Shown here one piece after another: positions 5,292 through 50,807 of a DNA stretch of 64,000 bases (position 1 is its first letter; each line of letters opens with the position of its first letter). Source of the stretch: Streptococcus sp. 29892 (GTDB lineage: Bacteria; Bacillota; Bacilli; Lactobacillales; Streptococcaceae); the NCBI RefSeq assembly GCF_032594935.1, contig NZ_CP118734.1:896001-960000 (forward strand), in the 5' to 3' direction. The position numbers and the translations under genes are program-made. The notes beneath the pieces were generated by a model. That model saw only the letters and a list, made by a program, of their open reading frames with translations. It was not told where the DNA came from and ran no database searches.

Positions 5292-5358
5292 AGGCAAAGG
5301 GGCCTGTTGTTCGCAATGAAGCGGAAGTTTTGGAACAACGGGCTAACTTTGCCTTTTT
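5292..5358 (+). promoter_or_regulatory. Dual-hairpin antiterminator/terminator leader (EutV/ANTAR target) no. 1
   Basis: Hairpin P1 is AGGC-AAAGGG-GCCT (5292-5305). Hairpin P2 is TTCGC-AATGAA-GCGGA (5310-5325). Both have six-base loops with A at position 1 and G at position 4, the feature known to be recognised by EutV. P2 also fits the core GCAANGRRGC. The competing terminator uses AAAAGGCAAAG (5289-5299) against CTTTGCCTTTTT (5347-5358), with inner pairing of GTTGTTC (5306-5312) and GAACAAC (5333-5339), so P1 and P2 cannot coexist with it. Binding of the ANTAR protein should allow read-through into the cobalamin genes. Confidence 0.8.
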
Positions 5359-8901: not shown

Positions 8902-8916
8902 AAAGTGAGAATACAA

Positions 8917-9525
8917 ATGCAGTTATATACAAAAACAGGTGACAAAGGACTAACTAAACTGGTTGGTGGTCAGAGTGTCGCAAAAGATGCGGAGCGTGTC
9001 AATGCTTACGGTACCATTGATGAATTAAATTCTTGGATTGGTTATATCGTTACTAAAATGGACCCCGCAGATGCCTTAAAGGATGAATTGTTGCAACTCC
9101 AGCATTACCTTTTTGACTGTGGTTCGGATTTATCTACGCCTCACGGTGTTTATCCTTATAAGGTTGACAAAACCATGGTTGATTGGATTGAGGAAAGGAT
9201 TGATACTTACGCAGATGTTCCACCAGCGCTCGAAGTTTTTATCTTACCAGGAGGACATGAAATTGCTGCTATGATCCACATAGCACGCACTATTGCTAGA
9301 CGTGCGGAGCGCCATATTGTAGGTACCATGTGGACAACGGAAATCAATAAGGATGTCTTGGTATTTGTAAACCGTCTTTCAGACTATTTCTTTGCCTTGG
9401 CGCGTGTGATCAATTTTACCCACCAGCAGCCAGATATTGCTTATGAAAGAGGTGCAAAAGTCTTTCATAATATAACAAAAGCTGATGTGGAGCGTTGGGC
9501 TAAGGCTAGGGAAGAAGTAAGATAA
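8917..9525 (+). CDS. pduO: ATP:cob(I)alamin adenosyltransferase, PduO type, copy 1
   Basis: About 202 residues. The N-terminal YTKTGDKGLT is the ATP-binding motif, RVNAYGTIDELNS follows, and VNRLSDYFFALAR lies near the end. It transfers the adenosyl group to Co(I) corrinoid to make coenzyme B12. The frame is open from GTG 8905, but the family N-terminus begins at ATG 8917. It lacks the C-terminal heme-binding domain of full-length PduO; a free-standing relative of that domain is encoded at 55963-56457. A second copy lies at 25970-26554. Confidence 0.9.
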   Translation: MQLYTKTGDKGLTKLVGGQSVAKDAERVNAYGTIDELNSWIGYIVTKMDPADALKDELLQLQHYLFDCGSDLSTPHGVYPYKVDKTMVDWIEERIDTYADVPPALEVFILPGGHEIAAMIHIARTIARRAERHIVGTMWTTEINKDVLVFVNRLSDYFFALARVINFTHQQPDIAYERGAKVFHNITKADVERWAKAREEVR

Positions 9526-9602: not shown

Positions 9603-9682
9603 ATTTGACACAACGGCGTGTTAAATCAATTGAAGTGAGCAACGGGGCTACAAAAAATAGTGATATTTTTTGTGGCCTTTTT
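9603..9682 (+). promoter_or_regulatory. Dual-hairpin antiterminator/terminator leader no. 2 (before cbiA)
   Basis: P1 is a nine-pair stem (9603-9611 with 9618-9626) closing loop AACGGC. P2 is AGC-AACGGG-GCT (9638-9649). Both loops have A1 and G4, and P2 fits AGCAANGRRGCU. The terminator pairs GGCTACAAAAAATA (9646-9659) with TATTTTTTGTGGCC (9664-9677) and ends in five T. It uses the 3' side of P2, so P2 and terminator exclude each other, as in the EutV dual-hairpin mechanism. Confidence 0.85.
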
Positions 9683-9705
9683 ATGTTTTAAAAAGGTGGC
9701 AATAC

Positions 9706-24508: not shown

Positions 24509-25949
24509 GAGTATTATCGTAGCAGGGCTATGTCGTATTTTTAAGCAGGATGGCCTGCGGGTTGTGCCCTTCAAATCACAGAATATGGCCCTTAATTCGT
24601 ATATCACCAAAACAGGTCAGGAAATGGGACGGGCCCAGGTCTTTCAAGCGGAGGCTGCTCAGGTTGAACCAGATGTTCGGATGAACCCTGTTCTTCTCAA
24701 ACCGACCTCAGACCGAAAATCTCAGGTTGTTTTCATGGGCCAGGTCCTAACGGATATGGATGCGGTCGAGTACCATGAATTTAAGCAGGAGTTGCTTCCC
24801 AAGATTAAAGAAGTTTATGAGGAACTGAGTGCTGAAAATGATATAATATTGCTTGAGGGAGCAGGTAGCCCAGCTGAGATCAATTTGAACGACCGAGATA
24901 TTGTTAATATGGGTATGGCTAGATTGGTTGATGCACCGGTTATCTTGGTAGCGGATATTGATAAGGGTGGTGTCTTTGCTTCGATTTATGGGACAATCAT
25001 GCTCATGCCAGAGGAAGATCGCCAACGAATCAAGGGAGTAATTATCAATAAATTCCGAGGTGACGTTGCCCTGCTTCAGTCAGGAATCGACATGATTGAG
25101 GACTTGACCAAAGTTCCTGTTTTGGGTGTAGTCCCTTATGCCCAGCTCAACATTGATAGTGAAGATAGTGTTGCTCTAGTTCAAAAAAGCCGGAAATATA
25201 ATCCTCAAAAAGACTTGGATATTGCCATTATCAATCTGAATAGGATGTCCAATTTTACAGATTTTAATAGTCTAGAAATGCAGCCTGACGTGTCTGTTCG
25301 CTATGTCAGACCAGGTGATGAGCTTGGTCACCCAGATCTCGTGATTTTACCAGGAAGCAAGAACACCATTGAGGATATGGTTTATTTGGTCGAGTCGGGC
25401 TTGGATAAAGAAATTCATCGTTGTTTCCAAGAAGGAAGTGCTATTTTTGGTATTTGTGGTGGCTACCAGTTACTTGGTCAACACTTGTCGGATCCCTTAG
25501 GGGTTGAGTCCAGCATTCAGGACATACCTGCTCTGGGGCTTTTAGGCACAACCACTATCTTCCAAGCCAATAAGTGTACCACTCAGGTCCAAGCTCGACA
25601 AGGTGACTACTGCTTAGAAGGTTATGAAATCCATATGGGGGAAACCTGTTTGGGTGATGGTGTTCAAGCATTTTCAACCATTGTTTTGCAAAATGGCGAG
25701 GCGACGGAGCGTCAGGATGGAGCTATTGGACATGGTGGTCAGGTTCAAGGGACCTATCTACATGGTATTTTCGACAATCTGGCATGGACCCGTGATTACC
25801 TAAATCAATTAAGAATTAGAAAAGGCTTGCCAACTCTTGACCAGCAAGTAGAAGCCATTCAGACCATAAAGGATAGAGAGTACGATAAGTTAGCAACTAT
25901 TTTGAGAGAATCCTTGGACATGGCAGCTATCTATGACATCTTAGCTTGA
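24462..25949 (+). CDS. cbiP: Cobyric acid synthase
   Basis: A 495-residue protein with a P-loop synthetase domain (IQGTASDAGKS at the N-terminus) and a C-terminal glutamine amidotransferase domain with Cys in FGICGGYQLLG and His in GTYLHGIF. It amidates side chains b, d, e and g. It starts inside the end of cbiO, with AGGAAAAG ahead of the ATG. Confidence 0.93.
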   Translation: MAKSLMIQGTASDAGKSIIVAGLCRIFKQDGLRVVPFKSQNMALNSYITKTGQEMGRAQVFQAEAAQVEPDVRMNPVLLKPTSDRKSQVVFMGQVLTDMDAVEYHEFKQELLPKIKEVYEELSAENDIILLEGAGSPAEINLNDRDIVNMGMARLVDAPVILVADIDKGGVFASIYGTIMLMPEEDRQRIKGVIINKFRGDVALLQSGIDMIEDLTKVPVLGVVPYAQLNIDSEDSVALVQKSRKYNPQKDLDIAIINLNRMSNFTDFNSLEMQPDVSVRYVRPGDELGHPDLVILPGSKNTIEDMVYLVESGLDKEIHRCFQEGSAIFGICGGYQLLGQHLSDPLGVESSIQDIPALGLLGTTTIFQANKCTTQVQARQGDYCLEGYEIHMGETCLGDGVQAFSTIVLQNGEATERQDGAIGHGGQVQGTYLHGIFDNLAWTRDYLNQLRIRKGLPTLDQQVEAIQTIKDREYDKLATILRESLDMAAIYDILA

Positions 25950-25969
25950 CCGTTAGGAAGGGAAAATGT

Positions 25970-26554
25970 ATGCGAATTTATACAGGATATGGAGATAGTG
26001 GGAAAACCCGCCTTTATGGTGGTGACCGAGTTTCCAAGACCCATGAGCGCGTGGAAGCTTACGGGACTATGGATGAGCTGTGTTCACTGCTAGGAAGAAT
26101 AGTTGCGGAGATGAGGGAATACCCAGAATTGGACGACCTTCGACTGGAGTGCGAGCAAATCCAGCAGCAGCTCTTTGATTGTGGCAGTGACCTAGCTACA
26201 CCAAGGGAATTACGGCCCTACAAGCAGGAAGAAGCTACTGTAAATTGGCTGGAAGAACGTATGGATGCCTATATGAAACAGCCTCCTCAGTTGGAGAAGT
26301 TCATCATACCAGGTGGGCATTTGATTGCCAGTTCTCTCCACATGGCAAGAACACTTACCAGAAGGCTTGAACGCCGCATGGTAGCCTTAATGGAGATAGA
26401 AGAAAAGGTAAATCCAGTCGGTCTTGTCTATATTAACCGTTTATCAGACTACTTTTTTGTCCTCGCTCGCCTGGTTAATTTTAGACTAGGGGTAGCTGAT
26501 ACGGTCTATGAACGCAGTTCTAAGATTTTTCGAAGTCGGAAAAAGGAGGCATGA
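25970..26554 (+). CDS. pduO: ATP:cob(I)alamin adenosyltransferase, PduO type, copy 2
   Basis: About 194 residues, paralogous to the protein at 8917-9525. It has RVEAYGTMDELCS and INRLSDYFFVLARLVNF. The N-terminal ATP motif is changed to YTGYGDSGKTRLYGG. The ATG at 25970 has AGGAAGGG before it. It sits after cbiP, where adenosylation normally occurs in de novo synthesis. Copy 1 sits in the pduX-cobT run. The two may serve synthesis and reactivation, but the sequence does not prove that. Confidence 0.88.
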   Translation: MRIYTGYGDSGKTRLYGGDRVSKTHERVEAYGTMDELCSLLGRIVAEMREYPELDDLRLECEQIQQQLFDCGSDLATPRELRPYKQEEATVNWLEERMDAYMKQPPQLEKFIIPGGHLIASSLHMARTLTRRLERRMVALMEIEEKVNPVGLVYINRLSDYFFVLARLVNFRLGVADTVYERSSKIFRSRKKEA

Positions 26555-35168: not shown

Positions 35169-35750
35169 GTGAAAAAAACATTTGAAACACGCAAGCTATA
35201 TTTCGGATTCCCAGTATTCTTTCTGGGATATAAAGATGATGTTCATGGATACAATATAACAACCTCAAGTTCTGCTTATTCTTTGGGCAGTATGATGGTT
35301 ATTGGCATGAGGACAAAGGGAAATGCAGTAACTGAAATCAGTAAACATGGTCACTTTACTGTCAATATTCCTAGAGAAGAGTTGATTGAGGAAGTGGAAC
35401 TTGCTGGTTTTAATAGCCGAAAAGATAAATTTTCCTTGACTGGTTTGACTTACACAGTTGGTGAAACAGTCGATGCTCCTTTAGTAAATGAGTGCCCAAT
35501 TTCTATTGAGTGCGAAGTTGTTGAACTTGTGGAATGTGGTAAGTTGACCAACATTATTGGAAAAGTGACGCGCAGAGTAGTAGAAGAAGACTTGCTTGAT
35601 GAAAATGGTGATTTTAAGGGCCATGAATTTTCGCCGATCAGCTATATCGGTGATGGTTCAGGTCGGGACTATCGTTTCTATAATGAAAAATCCTTACGAA
35701 TGGGGACTCTGATCAAAAAACGAAGAGAAGCAGAAGCAAAGTCGGATTAG
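35169..35750 (+). CDS. Flavin reductase-like FMN-binding protein
   Basis: A 193-residue protein of the flavoredoxin/flavin-reductase split-barrel family: PVFFLGYKDD, NITTSSSAYSLG, GHFTVNIP and CPISIECEVVELVE. It starts at GTG behind AAAGGAG. As the last gene after the OYE homologue it might supply electrons to reduce cob(II)alamin before adenosylation, which is an inference from position alone. A two-way terminator follows at 35761. Confidence 0.75.
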   Translation: MKKTFETRKLYFGFPVFFLGYKDDVHGYNITTSSSAYSLGSMMVIGMRTKGNAVTEISKHGHFTVNIPREELIEEVELAGFNSRKDKFSLTGLTYTVGETVDAPLVNECPISIECEVVELVECGKLTNIIGKVTRRVVEEDLLDENGDFKGHEFSPISYIGDGSGRDYRFYNEKSLRMGTLIKKRREAEAKSD

Positions 35751-35754
35751 AACA

Positions 35755-35788
35755 AGAAAAAACCACCTTTGAAAAATCAAGGGTGGTT
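35755..35788. terminator. Bidirectional terminator between the cob run and the minus-strand RNA
   Basis: AACCACCTTTGA (35761-35772) pairs with TCAAGGGTGGTT (35777-35788). On the minus strand it ends in a run of T (plus-strand A, 35756-35762), so it mainly ends the riboswitch RNA. On the plus strand the tail is weaker (TTTGTAGTTT). Confidence 0.75.
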
Positions 35789-35832
35789 TGTAGTTTATGT
35801 TAAGAAAGCATTTATACATCTTTGTATAGTCT

Positions 35833-35889
35833 GTTAAGCATCATTGATTAACTGTGGCTTTCCCGATTATCGGCCCTGCTCCGTTGCAG
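35833..35889 (-). promoter_or_regulatory. Dual ANTAR hairpins inside the riboswitch RNA
   Basis: On the minus strand the first hairpin is CTGC-AACGGA-GCAG (35889-35876), fitting GCAANGRRGC. The second is GTTAATC-AATGAT-GCTTAAC (35852-35833), with one mismatch in the stem. Both loops have A1 and G4. About 23 bases lie between them. They mimic the mRNA leaders and could bind the ANTAR regulator. Confidence 0.72.
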
Positions 35890-35974
35890 TAAGGTAGTTT
35901 TTCTACCTTTAGAAAATGAAAGGTACTTCACGTAGAGCCAATAATGGAAAATACCGCAGTAGATGCGCTATCCA

Positions 35975-36115
35975 AACTGACATCACACCTTACATCGAGG
36001 CGTGAGATCTACTAAAATTTGAAACCAAAGACCTGACTTAAAGCAAAGCTTATCACAGTGGCGGGACCGCGTTGGATTTGCACCAAACTTCCATGTTTTC
36101 AAAAGTACTAAAATC
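35975..36115 (-). promoter_or_regulatory. Cobalamin riboswitch aptamer
   Basis: Read on the minus strand: GGAAGTTTGGTGCAAATCC, then GCGGTCCCGCCACTG with the B12 box GCCACTG at 36062-36056, then AAGTCAGGTCT, and near the 3' end GATGTAAGGTGTGA, matching the GTAAGGTG element of adenosylcobalamin aptamers. Edges are approximate. Confidence 0.88.
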
Positions 36116-36131
36116 AATTCCTAGCATCATC

Positions 36132-36160
36132 ATTATAACTTATCTTCGCTAGTTTGACAA
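36132..36160 (-). promoter_or_regulatory. Promoter of the riboswitch RNA
   Basis: On the minus strand, -35 TTGTCA (36160-36155), a 17-base spacer and -10 TATAAT (36137-36132). Transcription should begin near 36125. Confidence 0.75.
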
Positions 36161-36410
36161 CTAATTTGTATCAAAATGATGGAAATTGAGAAGCTCTCTC
36201 CATCCATAACTCGCTTTGCTATAGGAGAGCATTTTGTCGTTCATCAAGGCAGATTTTGATGGAAATATAAAAAAGAAGATGAATGCTGGGTAGCTTGAAA
36301 ACTAGTCATAGATAGAAGTACTGAACGAGGGGCACAGGTTCATAGGTAGTCATTTAGGTAAGGGTGCAAGGGCAAAAAAGTTAATAAAAATATCAAGAAA
36401 AATCATTATT
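36161..36410. other. Intergenic stretch between divergent promoters, no gene recognised
   Basis: No convincing coding frame on either strand and no repeat that I recognise. It separates the minus-strand riboswitch RNA promoter from the plus-strand alcohol dehydrogenase promoter and may be the remains of older sequence. Confidence 0.4.
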
Positions 36411-36414
36411 TCTG

Positions 36415-36443
36415 TTGATATGTTAATGGCTTTATGTTATAAT
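36415..36443 (+). promoter_or_regulatory. Promoter of the alcohol dehydrogenase gene
   Basis: TTGATA (36415-36420), a 17-base spacer and TATAAT (36438-36443). The leader begins near 36450. Confidence 0.78.
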
Positions 36444-36450
36444 TTTTTCG

Positions 36451-36548
36451 TGGTACAAAGGCGTACTAATCAATAAGCAATGTAGCTATATGAAACGACT
36501 ATAACTTAATGGAGAGTTCTAGTCTGGTTTTCATATGGCTTATTTTTA
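36451..36548 (+). promoter_or_regulatory. Dual-hairpin antiterminator/terminator leader no. 3
   Basis: P1 is TGGTAC-AAAGGC-GTACTA (36451-36468). P2 is AGC-AATGTA-GCT (36476-36487), a short stem. Both loops have A1 and G4. The terminator pairs TAGCTATATGAAA (36483-36495) with TTTTCATATGGCT (36528-36540), followed by TATTTTTA, and it uses the 3' side of P2. Read-through should need the ANTAR protein. Confidence 0.8.
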
Positions 36549-36576
36549 TGGAAAAGTTACATAGAAAGGAGAAGAA

Positions 36577-37713
36577 ATGTACAAGATTTTCTATAAAACA
36601 GAATTGTGCATAGGTGAGGGTGCTCTAGAACAGCTAAGAAGTTATAAGAATGAGCACATCTTGGTTGTTGCAGATCCCTTCCTAAAACAAACTGGTCAGT
36701 TGGACAGTGTATTAAGTTATCTGGATTCAAGCAATCAGTGTCATGTTTTTGATGATATTGTACCAGACCCACCGATTGAAACCATAATTGCTGGTATTCA
36801 GTCTGTGGGTGGTCAACAAATCAGTATCATCCTTGCGATTGGCGGTGGTTCAGCTCTTGATGCAGCCAAGGCAATTTACTACTTTGGTAAAAAAATGGCT
36901 GTGTTTACAGATGTGACTTTAATTGCTATCCCAACAACCAGCGGTACTGGTTCGGAAGTGACGGAATTTGCCGTCATTACTGACAGGCAAAAAGAAATCA
37001 AGTATCCTTTGGTTTCAAGAGAAATACTACCCGATGTAGCCATTTTAGATTCCTGTTTAGTATCATCTCTACCAGGAAACATTACAGCAGATACGGGGAT
37101 GGATGTCCTGACCCACGCTATTGAAGCCTATGTTTCGACCAAGGCAACAGATTTTTCAGATGCTCTAGCAGAAAAAGCCATTAAATTAGTTTTCGAATAC
37201 CTACCTAAAGCCTACAAAAATGGAAACGATTCAGTGGCTCGTGAAAAAATGCATGTTGCGTCAACTCTGGCAGGCATGGCCTTCAATACCGCATCCTTGG
37301 GGATCAACCATGGCTTAGCCCATGCTACAGGAGCAAAATTCCATATCCCTCATGGACGAGTAAACAGTATTCTAATGCCATACGTCATCCAGTATAATGC
37401 CAATATCAGTGCTCGTGGACTAGGTGACGGTGATAGAGCAACAGCTATCCGATACCAAGAGATTGCTAAACTAATTGGTTGCAGTGCTACTAGTCCTGTT
37501 TTGGGTGTTCGACAGCTGATTGACGCTGTGAAAAAATTGCAACGAAAACTGGATTTGCCGATGACCTTACGGGAGTATGGTGTTTCTGTTAGTGATTTTA
37601 ATCAGTACAAGGAAGAAATTGCAGCAGCAGCGGTAGTAGATAAGTGTACTGCTACAAATCCACGACAACCGAGCACGGAAGAAGCTTTGGTAGTTTTGGA
37701 AAATGCTTTCTAG
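36577..37713 (+). CDS. Iron-containing alcohol dehydrogenase (EutG/PduQ type)
   Basis: A 378-residue group III alcohol dehydrogenase with GGGSALDAAKAI for NAD binding and the metal-binding stretch HGLAHATGAKFHIPHGRVN. It reduces acetaldehyde or propionaldehyde to the alcohol and regenerates NAD inside the compartment. It is the only such gene in the window, so it probably serves both substrates; eutG or pduQ would both fit. AAAGGAG precedes the ATG. It has its own antiterminator leader. Confidence 0.88.
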   Translation: MYKIFYKTELCIGEGALEQLRSYKNEHILVVADPFLKQTGQLDSVLSYLDSSNQCHVFDDIVPDPPIETIIAGIQSVGGQQISIILAIGGGSALDAAKAIYYFGKKMAVFTDVTLIAIPTTSGTGSEVTEFAVITDRQKEIKYPLVSREILPDVAILDSCLVSSLPGNITADTGMDVLTHAIEAYVSTKATDFSDALAEKAIKLVFEYLPKAYKNGNDSVAREKMHVASTLAGMAFNTASLGINHGLAHATGAKFHIPHGRVNSILMPYVIQYNANISARGLGDGDRATAIRYQEIAKLIGCSATSPVLGVRQLIDAVKKLQRKLDLPMTLREYGVSVSDFNQYKEEIAAAAVVDKCTATNPRQPSTEEALVVLENAF

Positions 37714-37720
37714 AATTATG

Positions 37721-37749
37721 TTGATAATTACCCTACTTCATGTTATAAT
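37721..37749 (+). promoter_or_regulatory. Promoter of the shell gene and ANTAR regulator
   Basis: TTGATA (37721-37726), a 17-base spacer and TATAAT (37744-37749), preceded by TGT as an extended -10. No terminator hairpin lies between it and the regulator gene, so the regulator should be made without antitermination. Confidence 0.75.
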
Positions 37750-37790
37750 ATACTAACTAGGGTGTTATCCAAACTTCTATTTGAGGGAAG

Positions 37791-38163: not shown

Positions 38164-38739
38164 ATGAAAGGTAGAATACTAATAGCAGACAAGGATCCAA
38201 TGGTTAGACGTGAAGTTAGAGAACTATTGGAAAAGGCTGATTTCGAAGTTGTGGCAGAGGCTAGTGATGGCTTTGAAGCAATAGAATTAAGTCAAAAATA
38301 CCGTTCGGATTTAGTTGTGATGTCTATCCAGCTACCTCTATTAGACGGTTTGACAGCCTGTAAAAAAATATTGGATGACAATCTGGCCTATAGTGTTCTC
38401 TTGTTAACTACCCAAAGTGATGAACAGTATATCGAGAAAGCCAAAAGATATGGTGTTAGTGGTTACTTAGTAAAACCTCTTGATGCTAAATCATTGATTC
38501 CTATGGTGGAAGTATGTATAGCAAGAGGTAGACAATTTCAGCACTTGACCAGTGAAATGGCTAAATTGACGAAGAAAATCAATGACCGTATCATCATTGA
38601 AAAAGCAAAAGGCTTATTGATGTCCCGTGATCATCTATCAGAATCAGCAGCCTTTAAGCATATTCGAACCATCAGTATGCAAAAGCGAGTTCCCATGGTG
38701 GAAATTGCTAAATTGTTGGTTATGCATGATGAGTTTTAA
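38164..38739 (+). CDS. eutV: ANTAR-domain response-regulator-like antiterminator (EutV-like)
   Basis: A 191-residue protein. Residues 1-120 form a receiver domain: ILIADKDPMVRREV with acidic D9 and D11, and K in GYLVKPLD. Residue 54, the phosphoacceptor Asp in active receivers, is Ser (LVVMSIQLPLLDG). Residues about 130-190 are an ANTAR RNA-binding domain (IIEKAKGLLMSRDHLSESAA.., ending IAKLLVMHDEF). It should bind the dual-hairpin leaders and block their terminators. No EutW-type histidine kinase gene is present in the window, which fits loss of phosphorylation control. Confidence 0.88.
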   Translation: MKGRILIADKDPMVRREVRELLEKADFEVVAEASDGFEAIELSQKYRSDLVVMSIQLPLLDGLTACKKILDDNLAYSVLLLTTQSDEQYIEKAKRYGVSGYLVKPLDAKSLIPMVEVCIARGRQFQHLTSEMAKLTKKINDRIIIEKAKGLLMSRDHLSESAAFKHIRTISMQKRVPMVEIAKLLVMHDEF

Positions 38740-38812
38740 TAATAGATATACAATACAGTGAACCAAGTCCTGTGATAGTAAGCAGTATTACAGGATGCTA
38801 ATCGAATAGAAG

Positions 38813-38902
38813 AGGCTGACAATGATGTAAGCCTAAAAGCAATGACGCTTGAAGAGTGGTAATAGACGAGTTCTATTAGCATTTCTTTAAGTGTCTTTTT
38901 TT
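38813..38902 (+). promoter_or_regulatory. Dual-hairpin antiterminator/terminator leader no. 4 (before eutA)
   Basis: P1 is AGGCTGAC-AATGAT-GTAAGCCT (38813-38834, one stem mismatch). P2 is AAGC-AATGAC-GCTT (38837-38850). Both loops have A1 and G4. The terminator pairs GACGCTTGAAGA (38844-38855) with TCTTTAAGTGTC (38884-38895), twelve pairs with two wobbles, then seven T, and it takes the 3' side of P2. No strong promoter is visible just upstream, so it may act on transcripts from the regulator gene. Another hairpin (CCTGTGATA/TATTACAGG) lies at about 38769-38794. Confidence 0.85.
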
Positions 38903-50105: not shown

Positions 50106-50807
50106 ATGGCAAACAAATGTAATGTTACCGAATTTATTGGTTCAAACCCTATTGGTGATACTATTGGATTGGTGATTGCAAATGTCGATCAACAAGTACT
50201 CAGTGCGATGAAGTTGGAAAAATCTTACCGTTCACTTGGTGTGGTAGGTGCTCGTACTGGTGCTGGTCCTCACATTATGGCTGCAGATGAAGCAGTAAAA
50301 GCAACCAACACAGAAATTGTTAAAATTGAATTACCACGTGATACCAAAGGTGGTGCTGGTCACGGTAGCTTGATTATCTTTGGTGGTGATGATGTTTCAG
50401 ACGTGAAACGGGCGGTAGAAGTAACTCTTGGTGATATTGCTCGTACATTCGGTGATGTCTATGCCAATGAAGCAGGGCATATCGAATTGCAATATACTGC
50501 TCGTGCTAGCCATGCTTGTCAAGCGGCTTTCGGTGCAGAAGTTGGTCGTGCCTTTGGTCTCATTGTAGGTGCACCAGCAGCAATTGGTGTTGTAATGGCT
50601 GATACAGCTGTAAAAGCTGCAGATGTTGATGTAATCGGATATGCTTCTCCAGGAAATGGAACAAGTAATTCAAATGAAACCATTCTCTTCATCAGTGGTG
50701 ATTCTGGTGCTGTTCGTCAAGCTGTGATTTCTGCACGTGAAATCGGTAAAGAATTATTAGGTACGCTTGGTGATACTCCAGTTAACTCTCAACCTTCATA
50801 CATCTGA
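50106..50807 (+). CDS. pduB: BMC-T shell protein PduB
   Basis: A 233-residue tandem-BMC protein: EFIGSNPIGDTIGLVIANVD, GVVGARTGAGPHIMAADEA and IVGAPAAIGVVMADTA. In Salmonella, PduB joins the shell to the enzyme core. It is the only pdu-type shell gene in the pdu part; pduA, pduJ, pduK and pduT counterparts are missing here. Confidence 0.93.
   Translation: MANKCNVTEFIGSNPIGDTIGLVIANVDQQVLSAMKLEKSYRSLGVVGARTGAGPHIMAADEAVKATNTEIVKIELPRDTKGGAGHGSLIIFGGDDVSDVKRAVEVTLGDIARTFGDVYANEAGHIELQYTARASHACQAAFGAEVGRAFGLIVGAPAAIGVVMADTAVKAADVDVIGYASPGNGTSNSNETILFISGDSGAVRQAVISAREIGKELLGTLGDTPVNSQPSYI

Follow-up and report, generated by a model that had tools for sequence, protein, structure and literature searches.

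A free-standing adenosylcobalamin riboswitch RNA in Streptococcus predicted to sequester the antiterminator EutV on an ANTAR dual site

The closest described relatives of the RNA analysed here are EutX and Rli55, which the accessible part of PMC4438229 describes for Enterococcus faecalis and Listeria monocytogenes only. E. faecalis EutX lies near eutG, its regulator is EutV, and it consists of an adenosylcobalamin (AdoCbl) aptamer followed by an ANTAR dual hexaloop, with one further single hexaloop according to the available portion of PMC8934654, in which each isolated hexaloop is also reported to bind EutV. ANTAR dual sites are defined, in the accessible sections of PMC3369931, by a pair of hairpins, each with a six-base loop that has A at position 1 and G at position 4 (A1/G4), and by a short linker, 5-12 nt in the E. 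faecalis eut leaders; induction was poorer with eutP linkers of 3 or 14 nt. A reversed EutX occurs in the eut locus of S. sanguinis (PMC5821096).

The RNA studied here lies in a stretch of 64,000 nt of Streptococcus sp. 29892 DNA (NZ_CP118734.1, positions 896,001 to 960,000; hereafter the window), where it adjoins ethanolamine (eut) and vitamin B12 genes. On the minus strand, within 35757-36160, we found in order a promoter-like site, an AdoCbl aptamer, a hairpin (S0), stem A (holding hairpins X and H1), two hairpins (H2-H3) inside stem B, and a terminator. The predicted sigma-70-type promoter (36132..36160, minus strand) was located as first described, with TTGTCA at 36160-36155, TATAAT at 36137-36132, a spacing of 17 and 11/12 matches, in a scan that gave 4 promoter-like sites in 35700-36600 against a chance expectation of 2.7. 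A similar site is present in relatives: the best upstream promoter-like site scored at least 8/12 in 33 of 34 homologues and at least 9/12 in 29 (scanned without a chance control), with a spacing of 17 in 30, 16 in 2 and 18 in 2. The predicted intrinsic terminator (35757..35789, minus strand), a hairpin of −14.8 kcal/mol with a U-rich tail, had likewise been proposed at the outset.

The aptamer (35975..36119, minus strand, including a terminal hairpin that we call P13) had been recognized in the preliminary description by its GCCACTG, which lies at 36062-36056. It matched the RF01482 covariance model over its full length, 1-149, at 120.1 bits (cut-off 50, E = 1.6e-22). The RF00174 model, which that description had proposed for the search, scored only near its cut-off, exceeding it in 3 of 6 genomes. 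Each of 26 genomes searched, out of 34, contained exactly one RF01482 match, namely this aptamer. The sequence that follows the aptamer has a more stable predicted fold than any of 200 shuffles (z = −6.8). No minus-strand ORF of at least 80 aa was found between 30523 and 40463, in agreement with the claim that no gene lies downstream in that direction, and the neighbouring gene at 35169-35750 is on the plus strand. The RNA is indeed divergent to eut, on the opposite strand, in the orientation already published for S. sanguinis (PMC5821096).

Three hexaloop hairpins follow, all on the minus strand. H1 (35876..35889, ctgc-AACGGA-gcag) is a single hexaloop hairpin with an A1/G4 loop, also returned by RNAalifold. 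H2 (35833..35852, gttaatC-AATGAT-Gcttaac, loop 35845-35840) and H3 (35813..35828, tatac-AAAGAT-gtata, loop 35823-35818) are the first and second halves of an ANTAR dual site with a 4-nt linker. The six-base A1/G4 loops of H1 and H3 had been correctly noted at the outset, but these two hairpins had been paired with each other. They are too far apart to be a dual site, which is ruled out; H2-H3 fits, and H2 had been overlooked because its stem carries one mismatch beneath the closing C-G pair. Another hairpin, ttttct-AAAGGT-agaaaa, was considered as a partner of H1 at 9 nt and dropped: it matched in 6 of 34 rows and is absent in G260. A dual site was present in 32 of the 34 streptococcal homologues, in a scan without shuffle control that tolerated G at position 1 of one loop and one stem mismatch. 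Decoy linkers were 2-7 nt, some of them shorter than the E. faecalis eut leader range of 5-12 nt; linker length varies with the number of stem pairs counted. The A1/G4 dual hexaloop is common to the known ANTAR leaders (eutP, eutG, eutS and eutA of E. faecalis; nasF; amiE); in contrast to these, the decoy H2-H3 precedes its terminator and does not overlap it.

Of 284 genomes of the genus, 34 have the RNA, and the same 34 have a EutV homologue. Together with the combination of aptamer and ANTAR hairpins in a free-standing unit that has a promoter-like site and a terminator, this upholds the assignment to the EutX/Rli55 design; both this kind of RNA and its reversed orientation are known. E. faecalis EutX was compared by description, and the sequences compared were Vagococcus and Listeria loci. 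On that basis, the window RNA has the parts, the position near eutG and the regulator of E. faecalis EutX, but is opposite to eut, shows no strong post-aptamer terminator in the scan and is predicted to refold between S0 and stem A. Compared with the E. faecalis EutV and EutW pair, the window EutV is without Asp54, EutW was not found, and the predicted regulon includes the B12-synthesis operon. With Rli55 the RNA shares its hexaloop hairpins and its nature as a free-standing AdoCbl riboswitch RNA beside a eut locus, although at the Listeria immobilis locus the aptamer is followed by a clear U-rich terminator, and the window RNA has none such. The genomes that we took to carry the reverse-oriented EutX of S. 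sanguinis (G185, G187 and others) have the same orientation, stems and dual site, but keep Asp54 in EutV and a EutW match (split in G184 and G194). A literature search covering few subscription papers found no report of a kinase-less EutV, of a streptococcal cbiA ANTAR leader or of the S0/A switch. The S. suis sRNA name rss03 was considered for this RNA and rejected, the accessible part of PMC12005413 containing no cobalamin link.

In most of the loci whose gene order was inspected, the RNA is directed away from eutG. G030 and G031 differ in that it is encoded on the same strand, following the flavin reductase gene at the end of the B12 operon; in G031 (L071 2350-2498) it is on the eutV contig, about 39 kb from eutV, and in G030 (L074 3415-3563) on a different contig, so that it goes with the B12 genes rather than with eut. 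In G033 and G176 (L068 6274-6422, L069 2424-2569), the two homologues in which the scan found no dual site, the aptamer shares the strand of eut, is followed by a terminator and a eutS gene, and may be an ordinary cis riboswitch.

Dual sites elsewhere in the window define the predicted EutV regulon. The window contained 6 duals, compared with 0-2 in each of 10 block shuffles, under a rule set after the window had been inspected. Four plus-strand leaders combine a dual hexaloop with a terminator: before eutP (5292..5356, loops 5296 and 5315), before cbiA and the B12-synthesis genes (9604..9688, loops 9612 and 9641; CbiA/CobB), before eutG (36451..36545, loops 36457 and 36479) and before eutA (38813..38900, loops 38821 and 38841). 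A fifth dual, intragenic at 50346, is without a terminator. The gene behind the 5292..5356 leader was identified as EutP. The gene cbiA is the first of the B12-synthesis run, and the dual hexaloop of its leader overlaps the terminator; its listed TTG start at 9670 falls within the terminator, and the true start is therefore probably at about 9706. An ANTAR leader precedes cbiA in 23 of the 23 genomes that have the gene (26 of 34 searched; no cbiA match in G232, G033 and G176), a count that depends on the rule, being 11 of 23 with a linker of at most 13 nt and A at loop position 1 and 23 of 23 under looser rules. The cbiA leader linkers are 9-18 nt, and 6 of the 23 (13-18 nt) exceed the 5-12 nt of the E. 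faecalis eut leaders. By eye, we also noticed a promoter-like site (TTGATA...TATAAT, 37720-37755) before eutS, with no terminator seen, which may allow basal expression of EutV irrespective of the eutG leader.

The fold of the RNA was assessed on an alignment (A2) of 21 of the 34 RNAs, from which 9 near copies and 4 RNAs of other layout (G030, G031, G033 and G176) had been excluded. Unguided, RNAalifold returned stem A, X, H1, H2 and H3, and did not return S0 or stem B. In the consensus structure 97.5% of cells were paired, compared with 32-45% in slid versions. Eight pairs changed on both sides (reached in 9 of 500 shuffles) and the covariation score was above 500 of 500 shuffles, values that may be inflated because the sequences are related and the structure was derived from the same alignment. 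S0 (35945..35974, minus strand), directly 3' of the aptamer, pairs TGGA 35974-35971 with TCCA 35948-35945 in predicted folds, shows weak covariation, and is exclusive with stem A. Folding and alignment place the 5' strand of stem A (TTTTCCATTATTGGC) at 35937..35951 and its 3' strand (GCCGATAATCGGGAAA) at 35859..35874, both on the minus strand. The latter overlaps the 5' strand of stem B (GAAAGC, 35857..35862, minus strand), which pairs around H2-H3 with GCTTTC 35809-35804 (3' strand, 35804..35809, minus strand) according to a permutation test and constrained folding. When strands were permuted in 12 of the 34 RNAs, with H2 of G031 placed by hand, equally good pairings arose in 35 of 5000 permutations for stem B, 103 of 5000 for H3 and 267 of 5000 for S0, the last a weak result. 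Between S0 and X lies a TCTACG motif (35931..35936, minus strand; alignment A2), complementary to GTAGA 36012-36008 in the aptamer; its TCTAC is invariant in 21 of 21 A2 rows and present also in G031. GUAGA/UCUAC and GUACUU/AAGUAC are candidate pairings of the aptamer with the TCTACG region, both sides being nearly invariant.

The preliminary description had suggested switching by refolding between two exclusive stems, 35891-35909 and 35904-35925. Both are present in the sequence, but not as a conserved exclusive pair. The first is hairpin X (35891..35909, minus strand, AAGGTAG/CTACCTT), which is conserved, with both-side changes in 4 of 4 counted pairs, and lies inside stem A. The second was rejected as a switch; on inspection it is intact in 3 of 4 window-clade A2 rows (G000, G063 and G259) and was not seen in other rows. 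The idea of refolding is itself favoured by constrained folding, with S0 against stem A as the predicted conserved pair of exclusive stems. Exceptions to this layout are G232, which is without stem A, and G031, in which stems A and B do not overlap.

S0 was tested in sets of 10 and 16 of the 34 RNAs, several of them close relatives. In transcripts ending at UCUAC, ahead of the stem A 3' strand, its probability was 0.70-1.00 in 10 of 10 species with the aptamer omitted and 0.46-0.98 with the aptamer. Once the tail was extended to the end of H1, S0 persisted in most; the exceptions were G277 (0.05-0.12) and, with the aptamer, G085 and G028 (0.50). It was at most 0.03 in 10 of 10 once the stem A 3' strand existed. 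When three S0 pairs were locked, the mean probability rose for stem B (0.00 to 0.88, with an increase in 15 of 16 sequences), for H2 (0.24 to 0.78, 13 of 16) and for H3 (0.51 to 0.69, 9 of 16), with no drop of more than 0.1 in any of the three. H2 and H3 were both at least 0.5 in 12 of 16 sequences with the lock, compared with 1 of 16 without it, and two control constraints elsewhere in the RNA had zero effect. As exceptions, H2 reached only 0.06 in G085 and 0.03 in G016, and H3 was at most 0.11 in G085, G160, G054 and G016. Forcing the stem A 5' strand to be single raised H2 in 6 of 16 and stem B in 10 of 16, and lowered H2 in G028, G160 and G054; no H2 release was seen in the window sequence. 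The lock results therefore suggest that S0 displays the dual site and that stem A tends to hide it. In free folding, stem A had a probability of 0.80-1.00 in 20 of 21 sequences, whether or not the aptamer was present. Folding with and without the aptamer had been proposed as a check, and across the 21 sequences, with the aptamer free or omitted, hexaloop exposure did not change consistently. With stem A dominant either way, no ligand effect is predicted, and the state favoured by AdoCbl is not given by folding.

The aptamer, promoter-like site, dual site, terminator, conservation and co-occurrence with EutV can be read from the sequences, and from them we consider it likely that an AdoCbl riboswitch RNA, free-standing and about 370 nt long, sequesters EutV on H2-H3 and H1, that AdoCbl picks between two folds, and that this RNA is probably the main input to EutV in the clade. 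The choice of fold by AdoCbl is the step that we infer. The ANTAR antiterminator EutV would be captured by the dual site H2-H3 and by the single hairpin H1. In one fold, S0 would form, stem B would close and H2-H3 would be displayed, holding EutV; in the other, stem A would form and H2 would be masked, leaving EutV available for antitermination in the eutP, eutG, eutA and cbiA leaders. By analogy with EutX, AdoCbl would end sequestration which, with cbiA in the regulon, would amount to positive feedback on B12 synthesis.

No refolding would be needed if the RNA worked as established for E. faecalis EutX and Listeria Rli55 (PMC5821096), with AdoCbl causing the polymerase to stop at a weak terminator just past the aptamer, so that the decoy part is left unmade. 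We take this possibility seriously, although we would sooner doubt it. The scan of the 34 streptococcal homologues showed no strong terminator shortly after the aptamer, as had been claimed for the window, but 20 of them, the window included, have a weak candidate at aptamer position 167-172, a hairpin of −6 to −13 kcal/mol followed by 8 nt with 5 U, which may allow weak termination. Among the 14 homologues in which that candidate is missing, some have weak candidates elsewhere before H2, whereas 8 of the 34 (G260, G194, G006, G203, G147, G141, G232 and G033) lack any candidate upstream of the dual site or final terminator. In L. immobilis, by contrast, a clear U-rich terminator immediately follows the aptamer (TTTTATTT, −15.1 kcal/mol). 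The missing strong U tract is nevertheless not decisive, because 3 of 4 Vagococcus loci likewise gave no early terminator in the same scan.

The refolding model could also hold with the opposite sign, AdoCbl stabilizing S0 so that the decoy is shown, EutV is removed and feedback on B12 synthesis is negative. We regard this as unlikely, though not far-fetched. AdoCbl riboswitches normally repress B12 genes in cis, and with the cbi operon in the predicted regulon and a sole RF01482 match, the inverted sign would supply this usual repression; S0, moreover, adjoins the aptamer on its 3' side and, being the less stable of the two states, would need help. However, B12-dependent ethanolamine use would then be shut off with B12 present, and the studied homologues have the opposite sign (PMC5821096). 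With the sole RF01482 aptamer in a predicted trans decoy and the B12 operon under the decoyed antiterminator, the sign of B12 feedback becomes a yes/no experiment.

EutV itself is altered in this clade. The window EutV (38164..38739, plus strand; domain match and alignment) has an ANTAR domain (PF03861, 61 bits) and a receiver domain in which Ser54 takes the place of the phosphoacceptor Asp54. RNA-contact residues R142, K147, K149, E160 and M172 are kept; Y164 is changed to F and K143 to I. At residue 54 the 7 clade genomes have Ser (in 5) or Ala (in 2), compared with Asp in 27 of 27 others; across 80 loci from named genomes it is Asp in 77 and Ser in 2 (S. suis), with L133 unscored. PF12282 as a probe for EutW matched nowhere, controls included, and an actual EutW protein was therefore used as the single query (E 1e-10). 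It gave no match in 7 of 7 clade genomes and a match in 27 of the 34, lying between eutV and eutA in the loci with gene order listed. In the window, the corresponding eutV-eutA gap (38739-38891), the place of eutW in EutW-positive streptococci, holds only the eutA leader with its ANTAR site; this gene order was listed for 4 of the 7 clade genomes (the window, G063, G259 and G260). Some EutW matches are split (G184 and G194, two pieces) or contain stops (G030) with Asp54 of EutV kept, which may reflect decay or assembly error. The clade is one branch (support 100/96; tree of 33 rows, G030 left out), EutV has no stops in 7 of 7 clade genomes, and its dN/dS, computable in 6 of 8 within-clade comparisons, is 0.03-0.10. 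From these sequences, the loss of EutW and Asp54 is read as one loss and EutV as still under purifying selection, that is, as a conserved protein minus its phospho-switch. The accessible text of the E. faecalis EutV structure paper (PMC8934654) names Asp54 as the phosphorylation site and reports that unphosphorylated EutV, a dimer in the crystal and largely a monomer in solution, retains the ability to reduce termination in vitro; a EutV that works without phosphorylation is therefore plausible. Since no kinase was found and Asp54 is lost, EutV would no longer be switchable via phospho-Asp54, and the RNA is probably its main dedicated input.

EutV minus Asp54 might instead respond to some different signal, such as phosphorylation on Ser/Thr or binding of a ligand, the RNA being a mere modulator; Ser54, present in 5 of 7 clade genomes, might accept a modification, but the residue is Ala in the other 2, and we hold this distinctly improbable. 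That the parts are relics of a decaying system with an inactive RNA, as EutW not found and Asp54 lost in 7 of 7 and changes at residue 10 (6 of 7) and residue 83 (7 of 7) could suggest, is very hard to reconcile with the low dN/dS and intact reading frames of EutV and with a dual site and a cbiA leader in 7 of 7 clade genomes.

For the S. suis group, we tentatively propose, as a reading that could well be wrong, that a two-component system has become a one-input RNA circuit. A kinase-less, phospho-dead EutV would be governed mainly by a B12 decoy that refolds and does not terminate early, the same regulator would serve B12 use and B12 synthesis, and the sole AdoCbl riboswitch would act on the B12 operon in trans by sequestration, possibly with positive feedback. 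A lineage without EutW and Asp54, yet with EutV, its leaders and the RNA, is a natural setting in which to ask whether a riboswitch decoy suffices to run an antitermination regulon.

Two further observations concern other genes of the window. Two PduO-type adenosyltransferase genes (8905-9522 and 25946-26551) belong to the same B12 gene run. At the window start, an ORF at 48-2561 matches the C-terminal part of ZmpC-like zinc metalloproteases and is far below the length of the family model.
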